From: a candidate division Zixibacteria bacterium HGW-Zixibacteria-1
Lineage (GTDB): Bacteria > Zixibacteria > MSB-5A5 > GN15 > PGXB01
Length of the DNA stretch: 63,858 nucleotides
Direction: 5' to 3'
Assembly (NCBI GenBank): GCA_002838945.1
Contig: PGXB01000018.1
Coordinates: forward strand, 1 to 63,858
The translations under genes were made by a program, and so were the position numbers. This document shows, in pieces, positions 3,921-19,505 of the stretch. The notes under the pieces are model-generated. The model was given only the letters and a program-made list of their open reading frames with translations. It did not search any database and had not been told where the DNA came from. Within the stretch, counting starts at the first letter, position 1, and every line of letters begins with the position of its first letter.

Positions 3921-6025
3921 ATGGCTCGAAAGGCTGTGTTATTCCTGTTTGCCTTCTTTATTTTGTGCTGGTCGGCGAACGGGCTTGATTTTAAGAATGG
4001 CGCGCATATAGATTTCCTGTCCGAGACAATCCCCGAAAGCTATTTTACCGCTCCCAATTTTGCCACCTCCGAATTATGCACAGTCAGACACGACGTTGAT
4101 GGAGACTTGATGAAGGTAACTCACTGGCTGCTGGGGGACGAGCTCTACAAATCATTTCAGAATCCCGGACTGTCCTGTGATGGGCCATATCCCTTTACGG
4201 TCGAGGAAGTGTATATGGTGCTGTGGTTCGACAGGTTGTGTACCCTCTATGTTTCGGTTGATGTCGAAACGGCGAATCTGACCAATCCGAGTTGCCCCTT
4301 TCCGGGGAACCTGCTGTCGATTTCATCGACGTACATGATGGTCGTTCCGGGCTCGGGATTGTATCAACTGGGACTTCCGCTTGATTCTCCGGCGGTTGTC
4401 AATGAGCCGTATTTCGCCGGCTTCTATTTTGCAGATTATGTCGACACTCTATCGGGAGCATCGCCGGTAACCGATGTTGTCCCGAGACCCTGCGTATCCT
4501 ATAATATCTGGGATACCGAAATAGGATTCGTGGATTTATACAATACCGGCTTTCCCTCTTTCCCGCGATTCCCCGGCCGGCTCCTGCTTTATTCGACAGG
4601 AACACCGGGTGGTCAGGGAGATGTGGAACCGGAGCCATCGGTGACAATTCTTAAGCCTTACTATAACGAAATCGTCGTGGATGATATTACATATGGGCCG
4701 CCGAAGCATCGGGAAGCGGTATCATTGATTATATGAAGTTCGAATATCGCCCCCAAGCCGGCTCATGGATTGAAATCGGCCGTGACGATGACGGCAGTTC
4801 CGCTATCCGAAATGGAATCGATCCGGCTGTGCCCGGCGACGGCTTCAGCAGATCATGGGATTATTCCGGTTTGTCGGAAGGAATATACTGGCTAAGGGCC
4901 ACTGTCTATGATACGCTGGGAAGATTCGATGCCGATTCGGTCCTTGTTACAATAGATCCCACTCCGCCGATGCCGGCCCTGGTCAATCCGTTGCCGACCG
5001 ACACCGTCTGCCTTCCAATGATTCTCGAAATTACTACCCCCGATGAAAATGTCAGCCTGGTCAAATTCGAGAAAAAGACGGCAAAAATGACTTATGAAAT
5101 GCCGGTTGCGACGCTTAATCAAACTCCCTTCGGACCTCATTATTGCGGCCCCGTGGCCGGGGCGATTGCCGTAAAATACTGGTTCGACCAGGGCAATATC
5201 TACTGCATGCGCGAAGGCTCTAAATATCTGACCATTGATACCGTCGCCGCGCGGCTGGCCGACAACATGCTCACCGATGAAAATAATGGGACGTCCGATG
5301 ATATGTTCTATTATGGTCTTCAGCAGTACATCGTAACGCACGGCAATGAGCTTCGGCTCAATGCTTACCGTGATCCCGAATATCTTGATTATAGAATTCT
5401 TTTTCAGGAAAGAGAACTGGTGCTTATTCTCGGGCTATCGGGAGATCCCGGCGTTTATCTGGTCGCGGCCGGTGTCTCCGGTCTGGTCGATAATCAGGGG
5501 CGCTATTCAATCAGGGCATCCGATCCCCTTACGGGCGGCATAGTGGATACGTACTTGCGCGATATCGCCGGCAGCGCCGAAATATATTACAATGGAAGCT
5601 GGCATCATCTTGATATAATCATTACCGTCAACGGCTACAATCATACAGTCACCCGTGAATATATAGGCGCCGACAACTCATCCGCCGGCGGCTGGACCTT
5701 CGCCTGGAATTCCATCGACCTGCTTGAGGACTCCCTGTATTTTATTACCGCGACAGTCTCGGACGTTACCGGTCGAACCGCCATGAAAACATCGATGTCC
5801 CTTTATGGATGCGGTTTTTCATATGAGCCGGGCGATTACGACAATGACGGTTTAGCCAATATTGCGGACGCCTTGTTCTTGATTGATTACATTTATAAGG
5901 ACGGTGAGGCGCCGGTCGGGGGCGCGGGACGGGCCGATGCCAACTGTGACGGCAATATCGATTTGAATGATGTCATCTATGTCATAAAGTATGTCATGGC
6001 ACAGGGAGCCGCCCCCTGTTATTAA
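3921..6025 (+). pseudogene. Secreted C39-like peptidase/dockerin protein, interrupted by a frameshift near 4695
   Basis: Two open frames, 3921-4736 and 4733-6025, are best read as one gene of about 700 codons. Frame one is coherent up to about 4694 (VTILKPYYNEIVVDDITY). From about 4697 the other frame reads AAEASGSGIIDYMKFEYR, upstream of its nominal ATG at 4733, so one base seems to be missing in the G run at 4695-4697. The N terminus is a signal peptide (AVLFLFAFFILCWSANG). The second part has Ig-like segments, then a Peptidase_C39_2-like region with Q130 and C138 (TPFGPHYCGPVAG, counted from 4733) and D264. The usual catalytic His position appears to be V241. A dockerin-like repeat pair ends the protein (about 5830-6020). 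The frameshift may be real or a sequencing error. Confidence 0.7.
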
Positions 6026-6050
6026 AATTTATTCGGAATAAATTATAAGG

Positions 6051-6075
6051 GGAGCCGCCGAAGCGGCTCCTTTTT
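6051..6075 (+). terminator. Intrinsic terminator after the C39-like gene
   Basis: GGAGCCGC (6051-6058), loop CGAA, GCGGCTCC (6063-6070), then TTTTT. It separates the plus-strand gene from the convergent capsid cluster, whose last stop codon is at 6074-6076. Confidence 0.88.
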
Positions 6076-6412
6076 ATTTACGCGAGAGTGCGGCCGAAAC
6101 GGCTCGGCCGGCCACTTCGGTATCAATGCCGCATACTTCAATGACCTTGTCGACGGCCTCATCAAAATAGACGACCCATTCTTTATCGGGATACTTCCTG
6201 ACCAGATCGTCCGTTATCTCATCGGCGATGCAGGAAATATAGCGGGCATAGCGCCTTCGCTTTTCCACCACCAGAAAGGGAACCAGATATTTGCGGGTCA
6301 GCCAGACGACCAACGCCATGAATACAGCCCCGATGCCACCCGCGATGCCCAATATGTTGTTCAACATAAAATCAATAAATGAAACAAGAATGAATGTGAT
6401 CAGCGGAAACAT
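6074..6412 (-). CDS. Small membrane protein, last gene of the capsid cluster
   Basis: A 112-residue protein with two hydrophobic stretches near the N terminus (about residues 2-15 and 20-38) followed by a basic turn (RKY, EKRRRYAR) and a soluble acidic helical tail of about 60 residues. It starts at ATG 6412 after a strong AAAGGAGG. The position at the end of a virion operon and the two membrane segments would fit a holin-like protein, but the long soluble tail is not typical and no endolysin gene lies beside it. It could instead anchor or organise particles at the membrane. I do not recognise the family. Confidence 0.75.
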   Translation of the reverse strand: MFPLITFILVSFIDFMLNNILGIAGGIGAVFMALVVWLTRKYLVPFLVVEKRRRYARYISCIADEITDDLVRKYPDKEWVVYFDEAVDKVIEVCGIDTEVAGRAVSAALSRK

Positions 6413-6430
6413 AATACCTCCTTTTGTTAA

Positions 6431-7873
6431 TTACCAAGTCATCAGCCAGCCTGGCTGATTGGGTACGGTTACTCTCTCCCGAAATATTGTCCCGTCGGTA
6501 CGAGACACGGTTATCTCGTAGCGGGTGGTATCAGGATCCAGCATATTATTGGGGATCAGGTCCAGATAGAAATAACCATTTTCATTCGAAGTGGTCTTTA
6601 CTTTAAATGGCGAAATCAGACCTGCCCCGGCCCTGGTCACGCCGGCGGGAAGCCAGGCGGTTATTTCGGCGCCCGCCTGAGGATTGCCGCTGATACCATA
6701 TATAAAACCATACAGGCGGCACAAGGATGGCATCGACGGCTCACCGGGATCAAACCGGTATCCGTAAACCGTATCAGTGCCCGGCCCCGAAATAACAAGT
6801 GTATCGAAATTGTCGAATATATAACCGGGAGAAAAACAGACCGCCAGCAGGCTGTCGGCGTCCAGATTGAATCCGGCATAACCGTCATTGCCTGATTTTC
6901 CAAGAGCTATCAAGGCCGATTGCTCCAAATTGCGTATGGCAATATTGACTCCGGGAATCACCTGATTTATTATGCTGTCTAAAATAATAACATCATAAGA
7001 GTACAGTCCGCTGCTAATACCTATCTGGCCCCGATAAGCCAGCGAGTCCTCGAGGACTCGATTGGCCACGGTATCCGCCGCCGTCCCCCCTATTTCGACG
7101 GCGTGGACTCTCGGATAGGAATCCTCCCGAACACTCATGGAATCAATCAAAACAGTATAATAGGTGCCTTGGAATTTTGAGGCGGTCAGCGCCGCATCGT
7201 GTATTTTATTGGCATCAATAGCCGCAATACCTATTTCCGTGGCATCCAGAGTTCCGATGACATTATCCAGATCGACGGCGGCATATCCGCCGGATGAAAC
7301 CGCCAGTTTTCTTCCGGCCGTAACAGGCTGCAGCACCCATTGCGACTGGCTTTCGAGACTGTCGATTATTTTCGAGAGAGAATCCAGAACATTGTTAACG
7401 CTGTCCACCACCCGGCGCGCCCAGGCAGCCGAATCAAGGCTGTATTCCAAAGGAGAATTTACTACCTGGAAAAAACCGCCGGTTGATGTTATCAGATCGG
7501 CATCGCTGTTATCATCGATCATCAAAATATATGAATAAAGCCCGTTGACCGGATTGGCCCCATCCAGCACCGAAACCCTCTCGACAAATACGTATGATTT
7601 CCCGCCATCAAAATCCTCCCAGTCACAACTTTTTATCCGGGTATCATTGTACGCCATAGAGTCGCGATAGGATATTGCTCCACCGGGATAAAAAATGGCC
7701 AGATATACGGAATCTCCCGACATCAGGTCAACCGGATTCCCTAGAGAATCGAGCGGTGCAAAAGGTATCGCCAGCGTGTCCCGATATGGCCCGTTGCTGA
7801 CAAGACCGTAGCTCCATGCCGTGCAAAATGAAACAATTGATAAAGCCAGACTCAACAAAATCGCTTTTCGCAT
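6431..7873 (-). CDS. Exported fibre-like protein of the capsid cluster
   Basis: A 480-residue protein starting at ATG 7873 behind GGAGGGGGG. The N terminus (MRKAILLSLALSIVSFCTAW) is a Sec signal peptide, which is unusual for a virion gene. An N-terminal beta domain is followed by a short helical stretch (RVVDSVNNVLDSLSKIIDSL, about 155-174) that could trimerise. Then come SSGGYAAVDLDNV and LDATEIGIAAIDANKIHD, which resemble tail-fibre or baseplate segments. The C terminus is a carboxypeptidase-regulatory-like beta domain (LYGFIYGISGNPQAGAEITA) ending in a short beta tail. The likely role is receptor binding or the outer surface of the particle, by position and composition only. Confidence 0.72.
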   Translation of the reverse strand: MRKAILLSLALSIVSFCTAWSYGLVSNGPYRDTLAIPFAPLDSLGNPVDLMSGDSVYLAIFYPGGAISYRDSMAYNDTRIKSCDWEDFDGGKSYVFVERVSVLDGANPVNGLYSYILMIDDNSDADLITSTGGFFQVVNSPLEYSLDSAAWARRVVDSVNNVLDSLSKIIDSLESQSQWVLQPVTAGRKLAVSSGGYAAVDLDNVIGTLDATEIGIAAIDANKIHDAALTASKFQGTYYTVLIDSMSVREDSYPRVHAVEIGGTAADTVANRVLEDSLAYRGQIGISSGLYSYDVIILDSIINQVIPGVNIAIRNLEQSALIALGKSGNDGYAGFNLDADSLLAVCFSPGYIFDNFDTLVISGPGTDTVYGYRFDPGEPSMPSLCRLYGFIYGISGNPQAGAEITAWLPAGVTRAGAGLISPFKVKTTSNENGYFYLDLIPNNMLDPDTTRYEITVSRTDGTIFRERVTVPNQPGWLMTW

Positions 7874-7891
7874 ATTTTCCCCCCTCCGGTA

Positions 7892-9208
7892 TTAGTAAAG
7901 TGATATGTCCATATATTTATCTTCACGGCCGGATACCTCGCTGCCGCCAAGTATTTTCCGCCTTCGGGCCGGCATTTGAGAACCACCGGATTCGACCGTA
8001 TACTCGATATAGGTGCTGAATCCGTCATTTTTGCTGAAATATCCGGACAGACTGTCGGGTACATTCCAGCCGGTCAAGTCGAAATATTTTACATCGCCCC
8101 AACCGGTCGCATCGGCATGTACTCGAAGTTTGTTGTTAGTGGAATTATAGCCCTGGAATGAAGCAATATATGTTATTCCCGGATTCAGGTGCCCGGCCAT
8201 GGGACACTCTTCCCAGTGGGCCGAAGTATCGGTTATATCAACGGTGGCAGAAGAGGCATGATATGTCGAGCTGCCAAGATCAGTACCCTTTGTATATGAA
8301 TGGACCTTGATCTGCAATACTCCCTCAATATCACCGTTTACATCGCAATAAACATATCCGCCGGTAATTTCACCCTCCCCGGTTTCCGCCTGACCGACAT
8401 TCCATAGCACATTATGTCGATAGTTGACAATGGTCAGCCCCCAGGCCCCGACGGAGGTCTTGCCGAATGTCGGATCGACGACGATCGGATATGCGGCATT
8501 TTCAAGAAAACTTTCCGGGATATCAATCGTCATAAGGCCGGCCAGCGTGTCAATATTCATCCAACACCGGGCCGAGTCGCCCCGGCTGTCATAAATAAGC
8601 GGCCGTTTAATATGAAAGGCCTTACCGGTGGCATAGCTCTCATAGAGAGTATCGCACCCGTTTATGTATCTCCGGTTGTGGCGCCGATTGGAGTGATATA
8701 CCGCATAAGAACCTTGTGCCCAGTCCGGGCCGGTGACCGAGAAATAATCATCAAAAAAAGCCGAATCCTGATAGTAAAACGTCAGGTTTTTCGAGTCTAT
8801 TTCAAATTTCAGGACATTCGATTTCGGGACAGTGTCAAACCGCATTTCCCATTCCAGACTGCCGTCATCAAGCAAATACAGGCTAATGGCCAGATCGCTG
8901 TCGGCAATGCAATCAATTTGGGGATTATTATTTATTGTTTTCATCGAAGCCACGGCGACTGATCCAAAACCTGTCGGGATCAGATCAACAATAAAGCAGC
9001 ACTCTTTACCCCAGGCATTAATCCCCAGGGTCGGCTGAAAGTTTTCGGCCAGCGAATCGCCGACAACAAAAGTTAAAGAACGGTCTTTGCGATTAGTCAT
9101 ATGACTTCCCCGATCAACGTCATAAACAGCATACATGGAATTTCCACTGCTGCCTGCACTTGCCCCGGTGACAAGACCGACAAATAATATCAACAGCGCT
9201 TCAAGCAT
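7892..9208 (-). CDS. Exported beta-rich protein of the capsid cluster
   Basis: I place the start at ATG 9208 (438 residues) because GGGAGGG lies a few bases upstream and the protein then begins with a signal peptide (MLEALLILFVGLVTGASA). A longer frame to 9313 adds a basic, non-export N terminus. The body is beta-rich. ENAAYPIVVDPTFG (about residues 247-260) resembles a motif common in phage structural and RHS-like surface proteins. It lies 25 bases after the preceding gene and 18 before the next. Together with 6431-7873 it forms a pair of exported proteins inside a capsid operon. No enzyme motif is seen. Confidence 0.72.
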   Translation of the reverse strand: MLEALLILFVGLVTGASAGSSGNSMYAVYDVDRGSHMTNRKDRSLTFVVGDSLAENFQPTLGINAWGKECCFIVDLIPTGFGSVAVASMKTINNNPQIDCIADSDLAISLYLLDDGSLEWEMRFDTVPKSNVLKFEIDSKNLTFYYQDSAFFDDYFSVTGPDWAQGSYAVYHSNRRHNRRYINGCDTLYESYATGKAFHIKRPLIYDSRGDSARCWMNIDTLAGLMTIDIPESFLENAAYPIVVDPTFGKTSVGAWGLTIVNYRHNVLWNVGQAETGEGEITGGYVYCDVNGDIEGVLQIKVHSYTKGTDLGSSTYHASSATVDITDTSAHWEECPMAGHLNPGITYIASFQGYNSTNNKLRVHADATGWGDVKYFDLTGWNVPDSLSGYFSKNDGFSTYIEYTVESGGSQMPARRRKILGGSEVSGREDKYMDISLY

Positions 9209-9233
9209 AGTACCCTCCCGGACTTGGTATGAA

Positions 9234-9488
9234 TTATGACTCTTTTTTGGTTCTCTTCTGTTTTTTCTTTGCCGGCTTCGAGCCGCCGGGCAGTGTTTCC
9301 CGGCGAAGTTCATCGATCATATCCCAGAATTTTTTCTCCGCCTTTCCCGTAACCGATAGTTTGTTTTTCATGTCAATCACCTTTAAAAGATCTCCGATTT
9401 TAACGGATTCGTAATTCAATCCCTTATGTATCTTCTGTTTCAAATCCTCGAGCATCTCAAGGTCGGTAAGATTCTTCTCTTCTTCCAT
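9234..9488 (-). CDS. Small lysine-rich helical protein
   Basis: An 84-residue protein, mostly helical (NLTDLEMLEDLKQKIHKG and KKFWDMIDELRRE), ending in a strongly basic tail (KPAKKKQKRTKKES) that could bind nucleic acid. The start at ATG 9488 lies 4 bases after the stop of the 9493-9879 gene, and the ribosome site is weak, so translation is probably coupled. Size and basic tail are compatible with a DNA-binding packaging factor such as a small terminase, but no helix-turn-helix is evident. Function unknown. Confidence 0.7.
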   Translation of the reverse strand: MEEEKNLTDLEMLEDLKQKIHKGLNYESVKIGDLLKVIDMKNKLSVTGKAEKKFWDMIDELRRETLPGGSKPAKKKQKRTKKES

Positions 9489-9492
9489 GAGA

Positions 9493-9879
9493 TTATGAAG
9501 CCTTCAAAACATGTCCCGTCTCGTATATGAAGAAATCGACACTGACAGGTCCCGGTGCGGCCGGATCGCGCGCGATCCTGAAACCGGTGTTCGATTCATC
9601 ACCGGCCAGATACGCCTGATAGGGAGATCTGGGCCGAATCAATACACGCGGCGATTCAATCGACGATGGCAGGGGGTTCCCGTAGTGATCAATGAGTTCC
9701 TCGAATCGGATATCCTGGGCGGCTCCTCCGATTGTCGATCGGCCGAACATTAACCGGCTTGTACTTTCAACGGTCTCCACGGCGAGATAATGCATTTCGG
9801 CATCGTCAGCCGTTCCCCAGATGACAACATCGCGCACTACCCACATTCTTCGGCCCAAAAGAAAATTTATGGATTGCAT
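9493..9879 (-). CDS. Small beta-rich protein of the capsid cluster
   Basis: A 128-residue protein starting at ATG 9879 behind a perfect AAGGAGG (7-base spacing). Predicted all-beta, with no signal peptide or membrane segment. It sits where connector or tail-completion genes usually lie, 11 bases after the connector-like gene. I do not recognise the family. It could be a head completion or stopper protein by position. Confidence 0.7.
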   Translation of the reverse strand: MQSINFLLGRRMWVVRDVVIWGTADDAEMHYLAVETVESTSRLMFGRSTIGGAAQDIRFEELIDHYGNPLPSSIESPRVLIRPRSPYQAYLAGDESNTGFRIARDPAAPGPVSVDFFIYETGHVLKAS

Positions 9880-9890
9880 GGCGCCTCCTT

Positions 9891-10703
9891 TTATGAATGA
9901 ACAGGTCGGCTTAATCGGCCGGCCTGAGCTCTGAAAGATTTGAGAAGACTATCGTAATCGCTTCGATAGCTTTCTGCAATGACCAGCCATGCCGATGCCG
10001 CCTGGTGACCATTTGCAGCAGTAATCAGATCTCCGGCGGCAGCCATCCGGCAGACCAGCGAGACGGCAAAATATGTCGCCGCCGCCTGAAGTGCGGCATC
10101 GGCTCCAAACTGACGATGCGGATCGACCTGCTTTTCGACTATGGCATTAGCCTCGGAAACCGCCTCATTTATCAATTCATCATCGATTCGGCTCATGGAT
10201 AGTTCATAATCGACCAGAACTGTTTGACCGGCCTGAATATTGCCGCCGCCAAGCCGTCGTATCATGCCCGCCGTGTAATCAATGCTGTAGTCGCTCCCTT
10301 CGATATATATAGAGTAATGATAGTACCACACGGCAACCCGGCCATCGACCGGGATAGCGCCGCCATCAATCGATTTAATAATACCGTTTGTGGAATCAAC
10401 CGAGTAATCGATGTTCTCGCGGTAAATCTTACCCAGGGAGCTGTTAGAGGCCACCGTCACCGAATTGGACGTCAGGTGTTCGTTACTCAACGTCACTGTG
10501 CCGTTTACTACCATGACATCTTCGAATACCGGTGAATAGTCTTTAATTGCCTTGACCACAATTGAGTTCTCGACAAGGTTGCGCCCCGGAAGATTGATCC
10601 ATTCCTGGTCGGAAAAAACCACAGGGTGGTCCAGACGCAGCCCGGTGGCGCTCTCATCGAAACTTATATGCCTTCTGACCAGATCAGCGTTTGTGTATGA
10701 CAT
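9891..10703 (-). CDS. Head-completion/connector-like protein with two beta modules
   Basis: A 270-residue protein. The N terminus (MSYTNADLVRRHI) and the helical C terminus (DDELINEAVSEANAIVEKQV, then ALQAAATYFAVSLVCRMAAA) look like phage head-tail connector proteins of the gp6 kind. Between them lie two similar beta modules: IYRENIDYSVDSTNGIIKSI to VAVWYYHY, and IYIEGSDYSIDYTAGMIRRL to VLVDYEL. The start at ATG 10703 abuts the stop of the preceding gene (10704) and follows GGAG. The fold assignment is a pattern judgement. Confidence 0.68.
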   Translation of the reverse strand: MSYTNADLVRRHISFDESATGLRLDHPVVFSDQEWINLPGRNLVENSIVVKAIKDYSPVFEDVMVVNGTVTLSNEHLTSNSVTVASNSSLGKIYRENIDYSVDSTNGIIKSIDGGAIPVDGRVAVWYYHYSIYIEGSDYSIDYTAGMIRRLGGGNIQAGQTVLVDYELSMSRIDDELINEAVSEANAIVEKQVDPHRQFGADAALQAAATYFAVSLVCRMAAAGDLITAANGHQAASAWLVIAESYRSDYDSLLKSFRAQAGRLSRPVHS

Positions 10704-12119
10704 TTAGCACTCCATTAATATAAAGGCCCCGACCTTCGCGACAGCACTTACATGAGTCCCGACAGGGCCGGTGTTAAATTCGGAGGTGACGACAGCTCTG
10801 ATCCAGAAAAGGTAATTGTCATTAAGCCTATTTTTCTGCCAGTTATTCGGTACTGAGATCATGTCATCCCACAGCATATAATCCTTCTCAATATCTTCAA
10901 GGTTAAAGCTGCCCCCCTCCGGCTCGAAACTTGCCCAGTCCTGCCCATTAAAGTACTGCCAGCTTATATTGCCCCCGCTTCCGGGAACCGACAGAATTAT
11001 ATGCAGGAAGTGAAACCTGTTTTGCATTCCCAGGTACAACGCGTCACCGGGCATCTTAAGTAGAGTCGAGGTTCCTGAATAAAACATATCACCGGCAACA
11101 CTATCCGCCGCCTGCGCCGTGAGATCCTGGTAAGAGGCAAAAGTTGAACTGTAGCAGATTGCTTCATCGAATGGTCGGGAAGATTCAATCATTTCCAGCG
11201 GCTCCGTGAAACTGCTTCCCTGACGACGGCAGCACAGAACCCTCCGTTGATTATCGATAAATTCCGACAGGTACACTACGTAGGGATTATTGTTGAAATA
11301 GCGCAGCTGCGGAAAATCGCCGCCGCTTTCATCAATAACGGCAACACCGCTCCACTTGCTTCCGTCAAATTCGCGGAAAGACAAGGTACCGCTATCGAAG
11401 GTAACACCGACCCGATTATCGGCCGAAATTGCCGTATCGAAATTATCATCAAATCCGGAGCCGGTGGCAATGTCCTCCTCATCTTCCCAAAGCTCCAGAA
11501 AAATATGTTTTCTGCGACAGGACAGACGGGTACCATCGATTGTGTAAATGAGGTATGTGTACGATCCCATTGACTGGACCTTCGACCAGGCCGATGAGAC
11601 TCCGGATGCGATTTCGTATCCATAACTTGACGGCCCGTTGCCCCAGTTTTCCCCCCGGTCAATGGAGTGCTTGGCATTGATATAGTACTGTCCAGACGAG
11701 ATCCTCGTCCATGACACCCAGAGCTTATCCGGCTGTTGAAGTTCAATTGACGGATTCAGATTATTGTCGGAGTCATAAATGGTGTGGACATCACTAACCG
11801 CCCATAGTCCATATATAAAAGTCAATTTGCGGCATACCAGATTATTGTTGATCGCAAGGGTGTATGCCAGGTACATATTATTCTCATCATCCATAACGGC
11901 GTCAAAAGGGTTGTCGGCACAGTCATTTAAGATGTTGATTGGCGCTACCCAGGTGGTATAAGGATAATCGGCATAGGTTAACTTGATCTCGGACGGCGAG
12001 GTCTGCATCAGAATAACGATTCTTCCGGCAAACTGACCGGATTGGACCTTGAAGACCTTCTTGCCGGGACTGAGACCGGCGCCATTTATGGCCGAACTGT
12101 TGACCAGATGATTTTGCAT
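10704..12119 (-). CDS. Asp-box beta-propeller-like virion protein
   Basis: I choose ATG 12119 (471 residues) because AAGGAG lies 5 bases upstream; the frame opens 5 codons earlier. The first about 330 residues are repeated beta-strand units typical of a sialidase-like propeller, with one clear Asp-box (SIDRGENWG, about residue 158). The C-terminal third has ISWQYFNGQDWASFEP and PNNWQKNRLNDNYLFWIRA, a pattern seen in phage baseplate and adhesin proteins. No catalytic sialidase residues can be assigned, so a binding role (glycan or cell surface) is more likely. It is the first gene after the major capsid protein, separated by a hairpin. Confidence 0.65.
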   Translation of the reverse strand: MQNHLVNSSAINGAGLSPGKKVFKVQSGQFAGRIVILMQTSPSEIKLTYADYPYTTWVAPINILNDCADNPFDAVMDDENNMYLAYTLAINNNLVCRKLTFIYGLWAVSDVHTIYDSDNNLNPSIELQQPDKLWVSWTRISSGQYYINAKHSIDRGENWGNGPSSYGYEIASGVSSAWSKVQSMGSYTYLIYTIDGTRLSCRRKHIFLELWEDEEDIATGSGFDDNFDTAISADNRVGVTFDSGTLSFREFDGSKWSGVAVIDESGGDFPQLRYFNNNPYVVYLSEFIDNQRRVLCCRRQGSSFTEPLEMIESSRPFDEAICYSSTFASYQDLTAQAADSVAGDMFYSGTSTLLKMPGDALYLGMQNRFHFLHIILSVPGSGGNISWQYFNGQDWASFEPEGGSFNLEDIEKDYMLWDDMISVPNNWQKNRLNDNYLFWIRAVVTSEFNTGPVGTHVSAVAKVGAFILMEC

Positions 12120-12134
12120 TGTACTCCTTTCCAT

Positions 12135-12161
12135 CAGGCCCGGAAAGACTTTCCGGGCCTG
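12135..12161 (-). promoter_or_regulatory. Perfect hairpin between the major capsid gene and the next gene
   Basis: CAGGCCCGGAA (12135-12145) and TTCCGGGCCTG (12151-12161) form an 11-bp perfect stem with loop AGACT. There is no T run on either side, so it is probably an mRNA-stabilising or attenuating hairpin, not a full terminator. It would let capsid mRNA accumulate above the downstream genes. Confidence 0.7.
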
Positions 12162-12179
12162 CTCTATAATCGCAACCGG

Positions 12180-13283
12180 CTATTCAAAAACAGTGTCAAG
12201 AATCATCGATGCTTCCCTGATGACCTTGGCGTAGGCGACCGATTCCGATATGACCGCCTCTTCGAAACGCTGCTCGATGATTTTATCGTACTCCACCATC
12301 AACGGCTGGGTGATAACCTCCTCGACCCCGAAACGTGAGTCCAATCCGATAATGAGATCTTCCGGGACCTCGTCACACCTCATCAGCGTCGCACCCAGCG
12401 GGCTGAATAGCTCGCCCTGTCCCTGGAACCGGTAACCGGCCATCGGATCCCTGAATTCATCCAGCGTCAGAATTGTCTTTAGCTTGCTGATGTGACAGAT
12501 GATTGTATTCATCTCAAACGGATCAAATTCCGCCCAGAGCGAAATAAGATCCTCGTACGTCAGCGAGCCTGAGACAGCGGCATTGACGGTCGCGGCCGGA
12601 TTGGCATTCCCGTCCCCGTTAAGAATGCAATTGATCACAAACGCGATTTTATCGGTTTGGAGTTTGAAACCGATGTACCACAGCAGAATCCGGAACTGTG
12701 CCGTGGTCCGGTAGCGAAGCGACTTATAGCTTGCCTTCAAACCCAACCCGTATTCCGGGACATTGATCGAATGCGTCTGCTCAGTCACATGGATCTGCGG
12801 AATTTCGGCCCCCTCGCCGATCGGCCGAAGCGAAAACTTGTCGGTCGCCGAAGTATCCACATGAAACGGCGTGTAGCGATTATTGCTGATGGTCGTTGAG
12901 TTTGCCAGAAGCGAAGCCAGCTCCGGCCGCATCGCCTGACCCTTTTTAATCTCCCGAAGAATAAATTCCGGCATCAGGGCCGGAGCCTTTTGATAGAACT
13001 GATCGACCAGCGTGGGATTTTTTCCGCCCAGTTTGATTCCGGCCAGAGCCAGTTGCCGCTCGAAGGCATCAAGCGGTGACCCGGGCAATGAAGGATCATA
13101 TTCGGCCGTTTCCAGGAGCTCGCTGAGTGTCATTCCTTTGGTCTCGGCCTCCAGATAAGTCTCCCGGTCAACCCGTATTTCCGAAGAACGGCCGAAATCT
13201 ATCGGGCCGCTCGGTTCCCGCCCGGCCAGGTCCAGTTTTTCCTGATCCGTCAACTCGGTTTTGAGAAATTTATTAAAATCCAC
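12180..13283 (-). CDS. Major capsid protein, HK97-fold type
   Basis: Predicted shell protein of the particle, 367 residues, starting at GTG 13283 behind GGAGGGG. The first about 130 residues are charged and helical like a scaffold (delta) domain. The rest shows HK97-type features: KFSLRPIGEGAEIPQIHV (E-loop/N-arm region), a long spine-like helix around ILLWYIGFKLQTDKIAFVIN, and the C-terminal strand set IIGLDSRFGVEEVITQPLMV. It follows the decoration gene by 12 bases, the usual protease-decoration-capsid order. Confidence 0.82.
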   Translation of the reverse strand: MDFNKFLKTELTDQEKLDLAGREPSGPIDFGRSSEIRVDRETYLEAETKGMTLSELLETAEYDPSLPGSPLDAFERQLALAGIKLGGKNPTLVDQFYQKAPALMPEFILREIKKGQAMRPELASLLANSTTISNNRYTPFHVDTSATDKFSLRPIGEGAEIPQIHVTEQTHSINVPEYGLGLKASYKSLRYRTTAQFRILLWYIGFKLQTDKIAFVINCILNGDGNANPAATVNAAVSGSLTYEDLISLWAEFDPFEMNTIICHISKLKTILTLDEFRDPMAGYRFQGQGELFSPLGATLMRCDEVPEDLIIGLDSRFGVEEVITQPLMVEYDKIIEQRFEEAVISESVAYAKVIREASMILDTVFE

Positions 13284-13295
13284 TTTTCCCCTCCT

Positions 13296-13718
13296 TTAGT
13301 TAAGATAAAGCGTGCAGTCGGTCGTACCATTCACCTCCAGGACCGTCCCGCGGGCAAGATTGCCACCGGCCGGATCGCCGGCTCCCAGAGCCGGAGCCTG
13401 TTTAACGGTTCCGCCAACACCTCCGACAACCCTGTTGCCGACCACCGGGTAGGTCGCCACAATCGGCAGCCGACAGATACCGCCGATTTGTACCGTGGCC
13501 AGACGTTCGCCGTTGTCACGATCCGTCAGGGTCAACGCGATTAGTTTGCCGAGCAGCCGGGCGCCGTCGGTACAGGGCCCTGTTTCATAATTGCCCGTCA
13601 GCATAACCGCTTTGCCGATATCGGCGTCCTTCAGGTCATCGATCCCGCCGGTCTGAGCAATTTTAAATGTCGCCAGGACCGGTGCAATGGCCTCAAGATT
13701 TTGTTCTCTTATTGACAT
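13296..13718 (-). CDS. Capsid decoration/stabilisation protein
   Basis: 140 residues from ATG 13718, which sits 5 bases after AAGGAG; a GTG two codons upstream is the alternative. A small beta protein with IAQTGGIDDLKDADIGKAV, LTGNYETGPC and a Gly/Ala-rich C terminus, resembling head decoration proteins encoded directly upstream of HK97-type capsid genes. Expected to sit on the capsid exterior. The function is inferred from position and composition. Confidence 0.65.
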   Translation of the reverse strand: MSIREQNLEAIAPVLATFKIAQTGGIDDLKDADIGKAVMLTGNYETGPCTDGARLLGKLIALTLTDRDNGERLATVQIGGICRLPIVATYPVVGNRVVGGVGGTVKQAPALGAGDPAGGNLARGTVLEVNGTTDCTLYLN

Positions 13719-13796
13719 GTTCACTCCTTTACATTTATTCTTTCAGTTTATAGAGACGGGTATATTCCCACTTTGCCTCCGGGCATCAGCCCTCGG

Positions 13797-14210
13797 TTAA
13801 ATCTTATGCTCCATCCAGTTTCCTGCCGGCGCCCGTCTTGATGACATTCCCGCATACTTGAAACTGGCCGGAAAATTTTTCCTAAAACGTGAGGCCGTCC
13901 GGCGGTACAGCAATATCAGTTCTTTGGCCTGGATTCCTTCAAGGGATTCCGAAAGTTGAGAAATTATTCGCATATCATCGTCCTCCGGATGGCATACAAC
14001 CAGCGCCTTGAGCATTCCCATTATCCGCATTCGGTAATCATCTTTTATCAAATGCAATTCCTCGGCGGGATTTTCGCCGCCGGCGTCGCCGTCCCATAAT
14101 TGAGTCAACAGACTCGTCAGTTTATCGAAATCGATCAGCTCGATGGCGCTTTTCTCCAGGCACCTGCATGCTTCCTTGAGCATGGTCTTATCTTCCTTCG
14201 TTATTTTCAC
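13797..14210 (-). CDS. Small helical protein between protease and decoration genes
   Basis: 137 residues, almost entirely helical and charged, starting at GTG 14210, two bases after the stop of the protease-ligase gene; GGGGAA overlaps that stop. An internal ATG at codon 10 with GAAGGAAG upstream is a possible alternative start. The position between protease and capsid is where a scaffold often lies, but the sequence gives no family match that I recognise. Confidence 0.65.
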   Translation of the reverse strand: MKITKEDKTMLKEACRCLEKSAIELIDFDKLTSLLTQLWDGDAGGENPAEELHLIKDDYRMRIMGMLKALVVCHPEDDDMRIISQLSESLEGIQAKELILLYRRTASRFRKNFPASFKYAGMSSRRAPAGNWMEHKI

Positions 14211-14212
14211 TT

Positions 14213-16042
14213 TTATTCCCCTTGTTCTGAAGAACCCTTATTGGCATTAGTTTTATAAAAAACAAACTGCCTGTTACCATTCTTCACGGCCGGCCTTAAT
14301 AAATAATCTCCATTCAGCGGACCCTGCATGGAGAATCTGAGGGCATCGCCGTCTTCTGCAAGATCAACTACCGAACCTTCACCAATGAGCTTTTCCGGAT
14401 GTGGATCATGATATTCCACTCGTTCAGCAAAAAACCAGCGTCCCACATCGAGCAGTGTACTATCATAGCGATTAAATTTGTAGGCGGTTGATTTTGATTT
14501 ATCATTCAAAATCAGGATGACATCGTTATCGAGCCGGAATAGCGAATATTCGTCACTTTGCTGCCTTACCGCGATATTGTCGAGCAGCAGTCCGATATCA
14601 TCCGGCTGCCCGTCGCAGGCGGAAAGACCCATAATTCGTGGCCGTGCCAATTCAACCTTATCCTGCAATGTCCTGATAGAACAAACTTCCAGTTCAACGA
14701 TACTTCCCTCGTTCCATTCGCTGCCGGCATAAACACCATCGGATATATCCGCCGCCTTTCCATCAGCCATGCAGGCTAAGGTATATCGATAACCGGCACC
14801 CGCTTTCTCCCGGCTCTTGACCGTGGCTGAAAGACGCCTGTGATTGGTGAACAAATATTTGTCGGATGAATTTGATTCGAAGATTTCGACACCGTACCTG
14901 GTGGCACATCGTCCAAAGCCCTGAGATATATCTTCACCTTTCAGAATTAGAGTCGGAATCAGCATTTCCGACTGGTCCCGGAAGAGTTCCTCAAGCTTCT
15001 TTCGCCTCTCGCATCCGGCTGCATCATTGAAATTTTCACCACCCTGTGCAATCAGATCGATTATCTTCAAATCCAGGCGCCGTACAGCCGATTTTTTTCC
15101 GTTCAGATATCGAACGACCTCATCGACCGTCTGTCTTTCTTTTCCGCAGCAGCCGATCAATCGGCCTTCAACCACAAAATCATTGCCGGGCAGTTTCAGT
15201 TCTGAAATAAACTTGCGAAGGATATTCGATTCGATTACGTTTCCGTCGGCGCCATGCGGCTGAACCTTCCCATTTTTCCTGACCAGAAACATTCTTATTG
15301 CTTCATAGGCGGGCATCATAAGGTAAGAGGCATTTTTATCAAGACGGTCGAACGACCAGAGCCGCCGAGATGGCCTGAATAAATCCTCCGGCTTCTCTTC
15401 AGATGAAATCCCCTCCTTTTCTCCATCGAAAAACAGCCGGTCCGTTATAGAAGTATCCCTTACCGATCCGCGATAGACCAGCGACGTCTCCAGCACCTTC
15501 AATATCTGCCGGTAATTGAAACAGGCCTGTTTTGTTTGTCCGCCGTCGGTTTCATAATTCTCCAATGGACGGTGCCGGCACTGTCTTATATCCGATCCGC
15601 ATATCGAACACTCTGGAAGATTAAAGATAAAGCTGATGGAGCATTCCTTGTAGATCCCGGCATCGATATTTTTCCGTAAATCTTCACCCTTGTCGCCCTT
15701 CTTCAGCCAATAGAAGTAAACTTTCACCCAGTTGGCGCCGTCACGCACGACAGCTTCGGCGTGGAAATTCCGGGCAATGGGAAGGCTGTCTTTGCGATGC
15801 CCGATCAGAACCGGGCTGTCGATCAACAGCTCTATCAGCCGAGCATGTTCGTCGGCCGGAAATCTTCCCCCATGGCTGTTGACCTGATCGGAGACGATAT
15901 ACATCGCCCTGATGTAAACATCATCCGCGGTCAATCTGGCGGGCGGCCTGATATTGCCATTGATCTTATCTATCAGGTCCGGCGGTATTTCGCGGTCCGT
16001 TTCGACCAGCGAGGCAGTCAATTTACCCAAAAGTTCTTTCAT
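14213..16042 (-). CDS. Capsid maturation protease fused to a ligase-like (nucleotidyltransferase + OB) domain lacking its catalytic lysine
   Basis: 609 residues from ATG 16042, placed by GGGAGG 4 bases upstream; the frame extends to a TTG at 16075. Residues about 70-165 look like a phage prohead protease: LLIGHRKDSLP with H82, ECSISF with candidate serines S135/S137, then a Cys/His knot (ECSICGSDIRQCRH). Residues about 225-475 follow the order of an ATP-dependent DNA ligase: PAYEAIR (244-250) sits where ligases have PKYDGxR, then NDFVVEGRL (motif III), LDLKIIDLIAQGG (IIIa), YGVEIFES (IV) and an OB-like tail ending LARPRIMGL. The nucleophilic Lys is replaced by A245, so the domain is probably a non-catalytic DNA or nucleotide binder. 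Residues 480-609 are unassigned. Confidence 0.7.
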   Translation of the reverse strand: MKELLGKLTASLVETDREIPPDLIDKINGNIRPPARLTADDVYIRAMYIVSDQVNSHGGRFPADEHARLIELLIDSPVLIGHRKDSLPIARNFHAEAVVRDGANWVKVYFYWLKKGDKGEDLRKNIDAGIYKECSISFIFNLPECSICGSDIRQCRHRPLENYETDGGQTKQACFNYRQILKVLETSLVYRGSVRDTSITDRLFFDGEKEGISSEEKPEDLFRPSRRLWSFDRLDKNASYLMMPAYEAIRMFLVRKNGKVQPHGADGNVIESNILRKFISELKLPGNDFVVEGRLIGCCGKERQTVDEVVRYLNGKKSAVRRLDLKIIDLIAQGGENFNDAAGCERRKKLEELFRDQSEMLIPTLILKGEDISQGFGRCATRYGVEIFESNSSDKYLFTNHRRLSATVKSREKAGAGYRYTLACMADGKAADISDGVYAGSEWNEGSIVELEVCSIRTLQDKVELARPRIMGLSACDGQPDDIGLLLDNIAVRQQSDEYSLFRLDNDVILILNDKSKSTAYKFNRYDSTLLDVGRWFFAERVEYHDPHPEKLIGEGSVVDLAEDGDALRFSMQGPLNGDYLLRPAVKNGNRQFVFYKTNANKGSSEQGE

Positions 16043-16281
16043 AAAACCTCCCTCATAAGACCCCCCGATGACCAAATTACCATCAAATTGATGCAGAAAT
16101 TGTTCACGCTATTTTATGCAAACGCTTTCATAGAAGAGACATGATTTCTACACCCAATAACGCGTGTTTTCAATAGCCATTGCCGGACAATGACTTACCG
16201 CGAGCCCAACAATCTTTCGGGACGGCACGACAGTTGCGTGGAATGTATATGGAAATTGGATTACTTTTTTTGAGGTTTATT

Positions 16282-16401
16282 ATGGTTGTCTATCGAGCAA
16301 AAAAAAGAAGCATGTTCAAATGGATCTTGGCGGCCATACTGTTTATTTCCGCACTGTGCGTCACCTTCAGTGACGTTTATGGTGCCGTCTCTTCTATTTA
16401 A
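16282..16401 (+). CDS. Possible small membrane/exported peptide, antisense to the capsid cluster
   Basis: A 39-residue frame on the strand opposite to the cluster. ATG 16282 follows GAGGT (16272-16276). The translation has a basic start (YRAKKRS) and one hydrophobic helix (MFKWILAAILFISALCVTF), like a small toxin or a signal-peptide remnant. An ATG at the MFK codon is an alternative start. It is followed by three hairpins, the last resembling a terminator. No homology is recognised; it may be chance. Confidence 0.35.
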   Translation: MVVYRAKKRSMFKWILAAILFISALCVTFSDVYGAVSSI

Positions 16402-16406
16402 CCGTG

Positions 16407-16429
16407 CATATATCATCTTTTGATATATG
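16407..16429. repeat. Inverted repeat 1 of 3
   Basis: CATATATCA (16407-16415) and TGATATATG (16421-16429), 9-bp stem, 5-base loop, AT-rich. An operator is as likely as an RNA hairpin. Confidence 0.6.
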
Positions 16430-16434
16430 ATCTT

Positions 16435-16465
16435 ATGCTTACATTCGGCATCAAAATGTAAGCAT
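16435..16465. repeat. Inverted repeat 2 of 3
   Basis: ATGCTTACATT (16435-16445) and AATGTAAGCAT (16455-16465): perfect 11-bp arms with a 9-base spacer. Arm length and spacing fit a dimeric regulator site or an RNA hairpin. Confidence 0.65.
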
Positions 16466-16485
16466 CGCGATATCACTTAATACGG

Positions 16486-16514
16486 CCTGCATCCGAGTAA
16501 ATCGGATGCAGGTT
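16486..16514 (+). terminator. Inverted repeat 3 of 3, terminator-like
   Basis: CCTGCATCCGA (16486-16496), loop GTAAA, TCGGATGCAGG (16502-16512), followed by TTAATTTTAT. It could end the small plus-strand frame. On the minus strand it lies just after the terminase stop and would be a stem without a T tract. Confidence 0.6.
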
Positions 16515-16522
16515 AATTTTAT

Positions 16523-17824
16523 CTACACTATTCCCAATCGCGGCTTTATTATCGGACTGTCCGGCTTGTACAGCGGCCAGAGAGAAAGAGCCAGGGCCAT
16601 GACGCCGTCAAAAGTATTATTATCGTCCCACCTGGCCTCCCGAAGCTCATCTTCCAGCGACCAGATGCGCCCATTCTCATCAGGCATTTCCCAGCGGTGA
16701 TATTTAACCCGCTGCATACTGTGAAACAGCTCCAGATTGCTCAGCAATTCGCCTTTTGACTTATGCGAAAATATAAAGGAGGTCGGATTCAGATCCTGCA
16801 ACTGCGAAACGACCACGTCTCCCAATCCGGTAGCGTCTATGACAAGCTGACCGGGGAATTGTCTTTGCTGCATGCGAATTTTCTCAAGAATAATGTTCCA
16901 GTCCCACTTTTTTATTCTGGTCAGAGAAACTACGGCGGCAATACCGTCTTTTACGCCAATCGTAATACCGACCGTCGCCGTCTTCTTTCGCGCCAGATCC
17001 CAGCCCGAAATAAACCTGACCGCGCGATCTTCCCGTGCCAGCGGAACGGTTTCATCCTTCACATTGATTAAAGCCGCATCGATATATTTGCCCGGAATGA
17101 TCTCGCCGCCGGAATCGACGAACTGCCCCATGATATTTTGAGCCACCCGCTTGTCACTGAGATATTTTAGCTGAAGATCCAAATAGTCATGCGAGATGTA
17201 TTCATTTTCCCGCGTATCGCCGAACTGCACGTAGCCGTCTTCTGTGCGATCTCTCAATTCCAGCATCTTCCGGTAAAACCAATTCCGACCGTTGGGTGTC
17301 GACACCAGGTCGAGTTTGCCCATCCGGTCGGCCAGCCTCATCTTGATCACCTCATTGACGACATATTCGGCTTCCGGATCGAAAGCAATCTCGTCGAAAA
17401 TAAAATAATCATAGTCGTTCCCGAGCAGGTATTCCCCCCGCCGCTGAGTTGAACGCGCCTCGATTACCGCGCCATTGCCCATTATGAGACGGGGATACGG
17501 CGTCGACACCATTTTTTTTATCAAACCCTTGATGCGACAGGATGTCTCCAGAATTCGCAAAACCGTTTTGAATATTATACCGGCTTGATCCTGGGTGATG
17601 CTGGCTGTAACCACATGGTATTTGCCGGAGCGATCATACCGCAAATCCCTGACCCTGAACAGGGCATGATGTATTATCTTGATCGCCTCGGCATATGATT
17701 TCCCCCAGCGATTGCCGGTGACCAGAAGATTCTCGCTCCGATTGCTTTCGGAAAGCCATTTTATCTGGCCCGGGTGCGGCTTAATATCCAGAAAATTCCC
17801 GGCAAAAAAAGGGATGTCGTACAT
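16523..17824 (-). CDS. Phage large terminase subunit (TerL)
   Basis: DNA-packaging motor: an N-terminal ATPase and a C-terminal RNase H-like nuclease, 433 residues. Walker A is GNRWGKS (37-43) and Walker B with the catalytic Glu is FIFDE (142-146). The coupling motif STPNGRNW follows at about 177-184. The nuclease acidic residues are D277 (SGWDLAR), D331 (LVIDATG) and D407 (NTFDGVMALAL). All are intact, so packaging activity is plausible. ATG 17824 lies 35 bases after the portal stop and has only a weak ribosome site. No small terminase gene is recognised upstream. Confidence 0.93.
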   Translation of the reverse strand: MYDIPFFAGNFLDIKPHPGQIKWLSESNRSENLLVTGNRWGKSYAEAIKIIHHALFRVRDLRYDRSGKYHVVTASITQDQAGIIFKTVLRILETSCRIKGLIKKMVSTPYPRLIMGNGAVIEARSTQRRGEYLLGNDYDYFIFDEIAFDPEAEYVVNEVIKMRLADRMGKLDLVSTPNGRNWFYRKMLELRDRTEDGYVQFGDTRENEYISHDYLDLQLKYLSDKRVAQNIMGQFVDSGGEIIPGKYIDAALINVKDETVPLAREDRAVRFISGWDLARKKTATVGITIGVKDGIAAVVSLTRIKKWDWNIILEKIRMQQRQFPGQLVIDATGLGDVVVSQLQDLNPTSFIFSHKSKGELLSNLELFHSMQRVKYHRWEMPDENGRIWSLEDELREARWDDNNTFDGVMALALSLWPLYKPDSPIIKPRLGIV

Positions 17825-17859
17825 AGCACGACGCCAGTCGCTTCTTCGAAACAGATTAC

Positions 17860-19119
17860 CTATATCAGACCACCTGCTTTGGCAACGGCATCATCTTTCG
17901 TGATCAAGCCGGCTGCGTATAGTCTCAGAAGATTATCGATCCTGCTCTTGTCGATATCGGCCCGATCCGACGCCAGATATGAAATCGTGTTGTCAAAACG
18001 ATACCGGCACCTGCAGGCAAATCCTTTCAGGGCCAGTTCAATATTACCCATCCATTCCATGAATCTGGCCGTCTGGCGCTGGACCGAAATCACCTGCCTC
18101 ATCACCAGGTCATATTTGAACTGCGCCCAGTTATGAGTCGTCCCGTAACTGTAGCCCAGCATGAACGGCGAGAGATTCGTCCCGGCACAAATCTCCTCGA
18201 CCATCGCCCGATGATTCAAAAACCAGGAATGTGTTGCACCCTGCATGTTCCGCGGGCCGACATAGTCGATCTTGATATTATCCCAGGTAACCGGATTGTC
18301 TTCGGGACGACAATCCCGAATCATCGAGACCGTTTCGTCGAAATACTCATTGACGCGCTCGGCGTAAGCATCATCCGATTCCCCCGACATCTTCTCGGGT
18401 GGTGCAATTTGAACATGCAGCCGGTGATAGCCGGCATTATGTGTCGCCAGCCTCATGTCATCCACTAACTGCTGTTCGATATAAGCCACGAACGGGATAG
18501 CGCCAAGCATCGAACGCCCCAGTCCGCTGCCGGTATCAGAATTTAAGCCAAGATAATAGAAATCTTCACTATCCAGCCTTACCTCACCTTTGTCGGTCTG
18601 ATAAACCAGGACACCCTCGCCGATTTGATCGGATAAAGTAATGTCTGATGGGTCAATCGGCTGAAAATGATCGATGCCGCTCATATCGGGTGCAATCAAT
18701 AGAAATCCCGCAAAAGCCCCGTCGGTAAAAAGAGCATTGAACAAGAGCGGCATAAATGACTCGATTCCGGCCGTTTTTTGAAAATGGTGCGGATAAGCTC
18801 GAAGGCACATATTATCCAGGCACACAATCGCGCCCGCGCGCATCTGGTTAGATACCGAATCAATAATCTCATATCCGCCCGGAGCGGATGACAATCTGCT
18901 CCAGGTCCATATGCAGGAATTCAAAACCGGGATCGTGTCCCGGAGAAACCGATACAAGCCAATCCTGAAGCTGTTGCCGACATTTCCCTGACTCCGCCAT
19001 ACAAATCTCTTGTCCCTGTGGTCCCCTGACCCCACAAATGGAAATAAATTTTCCGTCTGTGAGCCGATTTTGACCATTTCATTACTTCTCAAGAAACTTT
19101 TCCTTCTTCTATTAATCAT
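17860..19119 (-). CDS. Phage portal protein
   Basis: Ring-forming protein of the capsid vertex through which DNA is packaged. I choose ATG 19119 (419 residues) because AGGAGG lies 7 bases upstream; the frame opens 15 codons earlier without a ribosome site. The portal signature is the region MVEEICAGTNLSPFMLGYSY followed by WAQFKYDLVMRQVISVQRQT, in which a core helix runs through the tunnel. Upstream, SDITLSDQ and VYQTDKGEVRLDSEDFYYLG are the usual wing strands. First gene of the cluster. Confidence 0.85.
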   Translation of the reverse strand: MINRRRKSFLRSNEMVKIGSQTENLFPFVGSGDHRDKRFVWRSQGNVGNSFRIGLYRFLRDTIPVLNSCIWTWSRLSSAPGGYEIIDSVSNQMRAGAIVCLDNMCLRAYPHHFQKTAGIESFMPLLFNALFTDGAFAGFLLIAPDMSGIDHFQPIDPSDITLSDQIGEGVLVYQTDKGEVRLDSEDFYYLGLNSDTGSGLGRSMLGAIPFVAYIEQQLVDDMRLATHNAGYHRLHVQIAPPEKMSGESDDAYAERVNEYFDETVSMIRDCRPEDNPVTWDNIKIDYVGPRNMQGATHSWFLNHRAMVEEICAGTNLSPFMLGYSYGTTHNWAQFKYDLVMRQVISVQRQTARFMEWMGNIELALKGFACRCRYRFDNTISYLASDRADIDKSRIDNLLRLYAAGLITKDDAVAKAGGLI

Positions 19120-19467: not shown

Positions 19468-19505
19468 AGAAAAAAAGTGATGTAATTTTTGATAAGTTCG
19501 CTCTC

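Follow-up and report, generated by a model that had tools for sequence, protein, structure and literature searches.

Bacteria of the phylum Zixibacteria seem to have domesticated a virus particle, most likely to pass DNA to one another. The particle is encoded by 13 consecutive minus-strand genes, running from 19119 down to 6074, that make up a phage-type head and packaging cluster in the window, by which we mean the whole analysed stretch of 63,858 nucleotides (forward strand, 1 to 63,858, of contig PGXB01000018.1, assembly GCA_002838945.1) of Zixibacteria bacterium HGW-Zixibacteria-1 (GTDB lineage Bacteria; Zixibacteria; MSB-5A5; GN15; PGXB01). The cluster is of phage origin, is fixed at a chromosomal site throughout the order, occurs in single copy, has diversified together with its hosts, is under purifying selection and has kept the motifs of its terminase intact. 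It is probably an ancient, vertically inherited viriform that works like a gene transfer agent (GTA), where the packaging and delivery of DNA are what we infer from the genes. As far as genomes can tell the cluster resembles a GTA, and we do not file it as a proven one.

Conservation across the phylum

Our sample consisted of 132 genomes of the phylum, distributed over 19 families and 85 genera by the assigned group codes, and 78 of these genomes are of high quality (in the codes used below, G stands for a genome, L for a locus or stretch, f for a host family and C for a contig). The major capsid protein (MCP) was matched in 111 genomes (73 of the high-quality ones), the large terminase subunit (TerL) in 115 (71) and the portal protein in 112 (70). 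Two of the TerL matches, in G030 (2.4e-6) and G104 (3.4e-4), are weak; they are included in the 115 and were dropped from the 113 used for distances. There is no genome with two full copies of MCP, TerL or portal: multiple matches represent partial pieces, and G066 has one distant extra TerL match. The identity to the MCP of the window is mostly 55-82% across the phylum. The ordinary HK97 capsid family PF05065, taken as a control, was found in 5 of the 132 genomes and is multi-copy in two of them.

The phylogeny of the three genes follows that of the hosts. We picked 60 loci from 59 genomes, every one with an MCP match, for long contigs and family spread, which gives 61 stretches when the window is included. 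In a tree of 60 phylum and 13 virome MCP sequences the group labels change 18 times for 19 groups, which is the minimum, against a mean of 50.2 changes for shuffled labels (0 of 200 shuffles reach the observed value). The virome sequences fall outside, on a long branch, and 13 of the 14 groups listed with at least two members form one side of a branch, the exception being f9 with its two basal members. The trees of TerL (42 sequences) and portal (43 sequences; support of 64 for f1) are at their minima as well, with 13 and 14 changes, respectively, and the MCP and TerL distances are correlated (r 0.87 over 41 common sequences; 0 of 999 permutations as high). In these tests the assigned family codes served as the host reference, and the three trees were made by a quick method without bootstrap. 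On this basis MCP, TerL and portal appear to have been mostly inherited vertically and to have co-diversified with the host.

The ratio of non-synonymous to synonymous substitution rates (dN/dS) is low in seven same-genus pairs. Where it could be computed, it amounts to 0.013-0.11 for MCP, 0.03-0.12 for TerL and 0.09-0.11 for portal, the ratio being undefined for several gene pairs with saturated dS. Judged by these values, the cluster genes are under purifying selection.

Gene content and chromosomal site

The original prediction for this stretch had described a one-strand cluster of 13 genes for portal, large terminase, protease, decoration protein, MCP and a connector-like protein, with a host-like composition and an intact terminase active site. 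The gene roles are borne out by PHROG matches and by the fold of the connector-like protein, the composition by a guanine plus cytosine (GC) content of 0.495 in the cluster versus 0.480 outside, and the active site by the conservation of TerL.

The cluster, all of it on the minus strand, starts with the portal gene (17860..19119; phrog_3753, 6.7e-25), which encodes 419 amino acids (aa) from an ATG, within an open reading frame (ORF) that extends with a TTG to 19164. It is followed by TerL (16523..17824; 433 aa; phrog_2, 1.4e-32; Pfam Terminase_6N, 5.2e-9). The Walker A motif TGNRWGKS and the residues DE144-145, D276, D330 and D406 are invariant in all 38 full-length sequences among 42, and on general knowledge of terminases we take these residues to serve the ATPase and nuclease functions. 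A candidate for the small terminase is p84 (9234..9488; 50 of the 61 stretches), a small basic protein. In six loci (families f6, f15, f16 and f17) its gene sits between those of portal and TerL; elsewhere it mostly comes behind p128. The shell would be formed by an MCP of the HK97 type (12180..13283; phrog_3922, 4.9e-62) and a head decoration or cement-type protein (dec, 13296..13724; phrog_4588, 3.1e-6). The latter is present in 60 of the 61 stretches, the remaining one containing just portal and TerL. Beside the capsid genes lies p137 (13797..14210; 54 of 61 stretches), a small conserved protein and possible scaffold.

The order of these genes is well conserved. The dec gene adjoins MCP in all 59 loci that have MCP, and MCP adjoins p476 (10704..12134) in 57 of the 59; p476 is then followed by the adaptor gene (9891..10703) and p128 (9493..9879), in either order, in 57 of the 59 as well. 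The genes that flank the cluster are host genes. Within the order of the window (29 loci) a divergent gene for a TPR protein, identified by TPR matches (19639..21171, plus strand), lies beside portal in 21 of the 26 portal-bearing loci. A convergent gene for a DUF7451-dockerin protein (3921..6025, plus strand) marks the other edge in 22 of the 26 loci with p480 or p112. In the 31 loci of other families, some of which lack portal, p480 or p112, the TPR neighbour occurs in three and the DUF7451-dockerin neighbour in none. Since the two flanking genes are conserved there, a single ancestral site is common to the order. The DUF7451-dockerin gene consists of two overlapping ORFs in the window, where relatives such as L072 and L073 have a single ORF of about 700-800 aa.

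TerL and MCP share a contig in 66 genomes; in 57 of these TerL is located upstream of MCP on the same strand within at most 12 kb (median 3.8 kb). In the other nine the two genes are separated by between 15 kb and 1.29 Mb; the distance is as little as 15-18 kb in three cases, and another, G027, has a broken MCP. Assembly errors are possible among these nine. Both genes were matched in 102 genomes, and the 36 in which they are on different contigs were not counted as split. Barring assembly error, modules that are far apart can neither be moved nor packed as a single unit.

Several observations concern rearrangements within the cluster. In the one-contig genome G027 (L131; G027:C1:2322220-2323002) MCP is broken in two, with about 0.6 Mb between the pieces and one piece on each strand, by an inversion or an assembly error. 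A C-terminal piece of TerL is separate from the main gene in four genomes (L091 in G079; G081:C81:8376-8522; G121:C67:22-174; G008:C11:153-425). In G079 this piece still lies beside the protease gene and portal and the remaining TerL are 0.4 Mb off, as if the moved module had left its end behind. L073 (11565-11864) and its relatives have, between protease and p137, an ORF of about 100 aa that is conserved (a cluster of 49 genomes from 16 families); it does not fit into the window and seems to have been lost there. The gap between TerL and protease (16076-16522 in the window) holds unrelated ORFs, often on the opposite strand, in several relatives and thus looks like a tolerated place of insertion; the 71-aa ORF found there in the window (16261-16476) was matched in three stretches and is left out of the count of 13.

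Further host genes follow on either side, with a PD-(D/E)XK nuclease next to the TPR protein on the portal side, and a lipoyl-synthase-like radical SAM enzyme, an HD-domain response regulator and an M50 peptidase with the DUF7451-dockerin protein on the other. No direct repeat of at least 12 bases was found between the flanks 5000-6500 and 19000-20500, and ARAGORN reported no transfer RNA in the window. General PHROG and Pfam scans gave no match to an integrase, repressor or replication protein among the 13 genes, where no profile search was aimed at these functions. At some distance (38323-40255) the window contains a low-GC island (0.33 over 38001-40000) with, by eye, a restriction endonuclease and a DNA methyltransferase gene, which was probably acquired recently.

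A prohead protease with a ligase fold

The gene at 14213..16042 (start ATG 16042) encodes a protein of 620 aa that, according to its profile match and fold model, is a fusion of a prohead protease and a degenerate ATP-dependent DNA-ligase domain, a pseudo-ligase. The N-terminal domain matches the unnamed family phrog_16951 (4.4e-15). A relative of the protease in L042 (family profile 4e-18) barely passes the Pfam cut-off for Peptidase_S78_2/XkdF (24.9 versus 24 bits), and the short protease forms of the phylum itself gave no match to that Pfam family. A Flavonifractor phage protein annotated as 'major head and protease protein' matches the protease part as well (2e-7). The residues H82, S135, C145, C148 and C155 are invariant in 39 long homologues and H157 is nearly so.

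The C-terminal half of the window protein has no Pfam match. In the homologue of G109 the remainder of the protein is an ATP-dependent DNA ligase (PF01068, 3.6e-30; phrog_114, 4e-20), followed by a weak match to LigD_N (0.041). The model of the window protein (predicted local distance difference test, pLDDT, 86.8; predicted template modelling score, pTM, 0.56) matches the P. furiosus DNA ligase 2cfm over residues 216-496 (VIA Z 21.1, root-mean-square deviation 3.3 over 276), and its best Foldseek match is the archaeal ligase 4eq5 (3.3e-10). These structure lists were filled by ligases, so that the protease half of the model was barely probed. The likeness to archaeal and LigD-type ATP-dependent ligases extends to the virus ANMV-1, the ligase of which gave a match over residues 327-713 (2e-17); the difference is that here the ligase domain is joined to a prohead protease. 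Of the 52 phage records with a match, not one reaches a coverage of 80% of the fusion. The open literature, covered by titles and the starts of abstracts, yielded no title matching protease-ligase fusions among those listed.

The lysine of motif I, expected of an active ligase, is replaced by alanine in the window protein. It is present in a KYDG context in 4 of the 60 family sequences (G103, G106, G107 and G109, of f13 and f14), while 35 keep a ligase-like region without this lysine and 21 are short forms or pieces. In this comparison only the columns of motif I (and IV) are meaningful, those of motifs III and V being at least one place off, and two short f16 proteins put an unrelated lysine into the motif I column. 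Fusions of the protease to a complete-looking ATP-dependent DNA ligase, with a weak match to a LigD-like 3'-phosphoesterase, were seen in L087 (7983-10187) and L115 (12345-14624), of f13 and f14. The bearers of the fusion include f9 and f10, which branch early in the MCP tree, and this suggests that the fusion is old and often degraded. Prohead proteases act inside the shell, as is established for phages, and the ligase part is therefore, by analogy, probably carried into the head together with the protease. The fusion would provide a biochemical handle on the fate of packaged DNA.

Portal vertex, cell surface and release

The connector-like protein of 270 aa, to judge from its AlphaFold model (pLDDT 86.3, pTM 0.59), resembles neck adaptors (head completion proteins) and itself has inserted beta domains; it is present in 58 of the 61 stretches. 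The model aligns with a T4 neck-assembly chain (VIA Z 9.8, 103 residues), the numbering of which we take to fit gp13, and with the phage 812 neck (8.7), the Pa223 tail (8.5) and SU10 (8.2). About 85-115 of the 270 residues align in these comparisons and unrelated human proteins also reach Z 6-7, so that the match to the neck of RcGTA (6te8_B; Z 7.0, 84 residues) proves little by itself. Sequence profiles of the PDB left MCP and p128 unmatched and matched the adaptor at chance level. The neighbouring p128 (56 of 61 stretches) is a conserved neck-side protein and a possible stopper.

The protein p476 (58 of 61 stretches) is a probable beta-propeller on weak profile evidence: its homologue in L111 matches PF13088 (BNR_2) with 2.8e-4, below the cut-off, and the PDB profile matches are weak, led by the uncharacterised 4irt (6.6e-4) and including a neuraminidase (0.064). 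The nozzles of short-tailed phages are propellers, which makes p476 a candidate for a nozzle, or else for a receptor-binding protein. Neither the sheath family phrog_279, nor the tape measure PF10145 (PhageMin_Tail), nor the capsid family PF05065 was matched in the genome of the window. Within the phylum the sheath occurs in 9 of the 132 genomes (best match 5.2e-12) and the tape measure in 9 as well, 6 of them above the cut-off. A contractile or siphovirus tail encoded elsewhere in the genome was rejected for lack of a phrog_279 or PF10145 match, and a tail of an unrecognised type may be encoded. The cluster is thus without a recognisable tail by sheath and tape-measure profiles, and the adaptor and the candidate propeller would allow a short one.

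The products of the last three genes stand apart from the other proteins of the cluster. A hydrophobic N-terminal segment is present in 17 of 18 members of p446 (7892..9208; start ATG 9208), in 46 of 51 members of p480 (6431..7873) and in 24 of 27 members of p112 (6074..6412), as scored by a simple hydropathy rule rather than by a signal-peptide predictor. The other families of the cluster have such a segment in 0 or 1 members, except for dec (7 of 60). The segment would export p446. We regard p480, with a C-terminus like CarboxypepD_reg (PF13620, 6e-4, below the cut-off), as a putative exported fibre-like protein, and p112, with its one hydrophobic segment, as a possible holin. Neither these three proteins nor p128 gave anything firm in PHROGs or Pfam. 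A particle that is assembled in the cytoplasm does not usually come with fibre-like proteins that are exported. The original prediction had called the cluster tailless and without a lysis gene. The former holds in so far as no sheath or tape measure was matched, and is weakened by the neck adaptor and by p476 as a possible nozzle. As to the latter, no lysis enzyme was identified, and p112 could nevertheless be a holin.

Proposed function and alternative explanations

The way in which the system might work can be outlined as follows. The head and packaging module of a tailed phage would have been captured by an ancestor of the phylum and inherited vertically ever since. Under some condition a subset of the cells would assemble a small HK97-type shell, which TerL, with p84 as its possible small subunit, would fill with chromosomal DNA, and the protease with its ligase-fold tail would enter the prohead and mature it. 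The portal vertex might be closed by the adaptor, p128 and p476, the tail being very short or lacking. The holin-like p112 could help to release the particles, the exported p446 and p480 would act outside the cytoplasm in the attachment to, or recognition by, sister cells, and the recipient cells would take up the DNA. A more far-reaching version, which we consider speculative and rather unlikely, holds that in this phylum-old particle the protease carries the ligase (in one clade with a LigD-like 3'-end-processing domain) into the head, where packaged host DNA is healed or kept transferable. The ligase would then be a dead DNA-binding part in most bearers, and the exported fibres would serve the recognition between donor and recipient.

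Several findings weigh against a GTA-like role. MCP, TerL and portal are all unmatched in 8 of the 132 genomes; six of these genomes are 72-83% complete, and G056 and G011 reach 98% and 92%. The genome G010, a single contig that is 99% complete, has MCP and portal and no TerL match. These bacteria can therefore do without the system, and the motor is subject to loss. TerL carries one internal stop in G042 and G058, p446, p112 and p84 were missed in part of the loci, and in the same-genus pairs dN/dS rises to about 0.3 for the faster-evolving p137, p480, p84 and protease fusion. With the degenerate ligase most bearers have lost one activity, a tail tube was recognised nowhere in the cluster, and no lysis enzyme was identified among the cluster genes. 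As a separate observation, L085 of G010 contains DUF7451/dockerin-type paralogues between portal and protease.

The main rival is a domesticated particle that packs DNA without delivering it and serves in PBSX-like killing, in the export of DNA into a biofilm or as a sacrificial or storage shell. We hold this to be possible, though not likely. The same conservation evidence applies to such a particle, the protease of L042 is of the XkdF type (XkdF being named after a gene of PBSX), a contractile tail lies downstream of the head genes in the one relative from Oscillospiraceae that was examined, and the exported proteins could have a role at the surface. A PBSX-type puncturing device is missing, however, given the distribution of the sheath described above, and a storage shell would not require the invariant TerL nuclease. 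That the cluster is an old prophage lineage in decay, or the result of repeated integrations of one related phage family, would account for the phage-type genes and for the broken copies (TerL in G042 and G058, MCP in G027, and G010 without a TerL match). It is nevertheless very improbable, and a prophage remnant was rejected, in view of the single copy, the congruent trees, the site common to the order, the low dN/dS and the missing att-like repeats; ordinary capsids (PF05065) are patchy by contrast. A satellite or capsid-only element that borrows the tail of a helper phage would also account for head and packaging genes that come with no recognisable tail. Such elements are mobile, whereas the cluster is fixed and vertical, and a regular helper is not visible in a phylum where sheath and PhageMin_Tail tape measure each occur in so few genomes, so that we give this explanation hardly any weight. 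The checks laid out with the original prediction, namely orthologous positions, dN/dS, flanking att repeats and tail genes elsewhere in the genome, thus turned out as expected for the domesticated DNA-packaging system that it had proposed: single copy, host-congruent trees, orthologous position and low dN/dS support it.

Relation to known systems

A particle cluster that most species of a phylum-level group have retained as a single copy would rank among the broadest domestications of a virus by bacteria, and would supply a regular route for the exchange of DNA in the phylum. Its unusual features are the phylum-wide retention, the protease-ligase fusion, the exported fibre-like proteins and the absence of a recognisable tail. 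An earlier report of Zixibacteria with a gene transfer agent or capsid was not found in the open literature, subscription papers being outside the search, and the papers that mention Zixibacteria together with a prophage seem unrelated by their titles. Within the same literature, as far as titles and abstract starts go, no title among those listed matched tailless GTAs or broad GTA surveys.

Outside the phylum, relatives of MCP were found at 32-36% identity in 11 viral contigs and at 29-37% in five unannotated faecal contigs from phage records, and the MCP of the viral contig L040 shares 33-36% identity with eight sequences of the phylum. A search of viral contigs with p476 yielded no relative, and TerL gave a single match of 17 residues. 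The record L132 (MT835508), deposited as a bacteriophage from human faeces, is 46.7 kb long and has its head genes on the minus strand, although most of its ORFs are on the plus strand; it could derive from the chromosome of an Oscillospiraceae host, a fragment of which was recovered in a virome.

A scan of named genomes led by the virome MCP yielded 544 relatives, and among the 80 listed (L134-L213) the titles are mostly Oscillospiraceae and other Clostridia. The head module is alike in that a homologous MCP is present in 80 of the 80 listed loci, the protease in 78, the portal in 76 and the decoration protein in 35. It differs in that none of these 80 loci matches p476, the adaptor, p128, p84, p446, p480 or p112 and that TerL is matched in 6, and weakly. 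In addition, the one locus scanned (L149:6197-18288) has a contractile tail with sheath, hub and wedge behind the capsid genes. A head module with this type of MCP is widespread in Oscillospiraceae: in one family 39 of 101 genomes have a single match each, counting one fragment and the centre genome itself. According to PMC12946183, members of the Oscillospiraceae, Onthomonas among them, show GTA-like packaging (3 of 25 events), for which no operon was reported. The common head module points to an operon candidate for this packaging, and may be the operon behind that of Onthomonas.

The neck adaptor of the window resembles that of RcGTA (Rhodogtaviriformidae), with which the cluster has a similar working principle in common, the comparison being one of neck folds only. 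RcGTA has a long tail, whereas no tail was recognised in the cluster of the window.

Another parallel, as described by Borodovich et al. 2026 (PMC12946183), is FpGTA of Faecalibacterium, with 40-nm particles that have no identifiable tails and were judged most likely podovirus-like. Likened by description only, the two systems encode their head and packaging functions in a compact operon (of 10.5 kb in FpGTA and 13 kb in the window) and have a possible small terminase without an obvious DNA-binding domain. The second operon described for FpGTA (baseplate, tail fibre, holin and endolysin) was not found here.

GTAs are defined by six features in Kogay et al. 2022 (PMC9662315), where the best-known family has confirmed members in one order and RcGTA-like genes occur in 57.5% of 1,423 alphaproteobacterial genomes. 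By the same paper, GTAs in general have a capsid, portal and terminase derived from Caudoviricetes, are endogenised, sometimes at several loci, and are inherited vertically. The cluster is alike on each of these points: portal, TerL, MCP and decoration protein have PHROG matches of caudoviricete type, the site is common to the order with TerL and MCP apart in a minority of the same-contig genomes, and the trees of MCP, TerL and portal are at the minimum of family changes. The remaining features are that mostly random host DNA is encapsidated, that a GTA is unable to package its own genes in full, and that the DNA reaches other cells; the observation that touches on the second of these is the distance of 15 kb to 1.29 Mb between TerL and MCP in nine genomes. 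What sets the cluster, known from its genes alone, apart from GTAs in general is its retention at the level of a phylum, the lack of a tail tube among the genes found, the fusion of protease and ligase and the exported fibre-like proteins.

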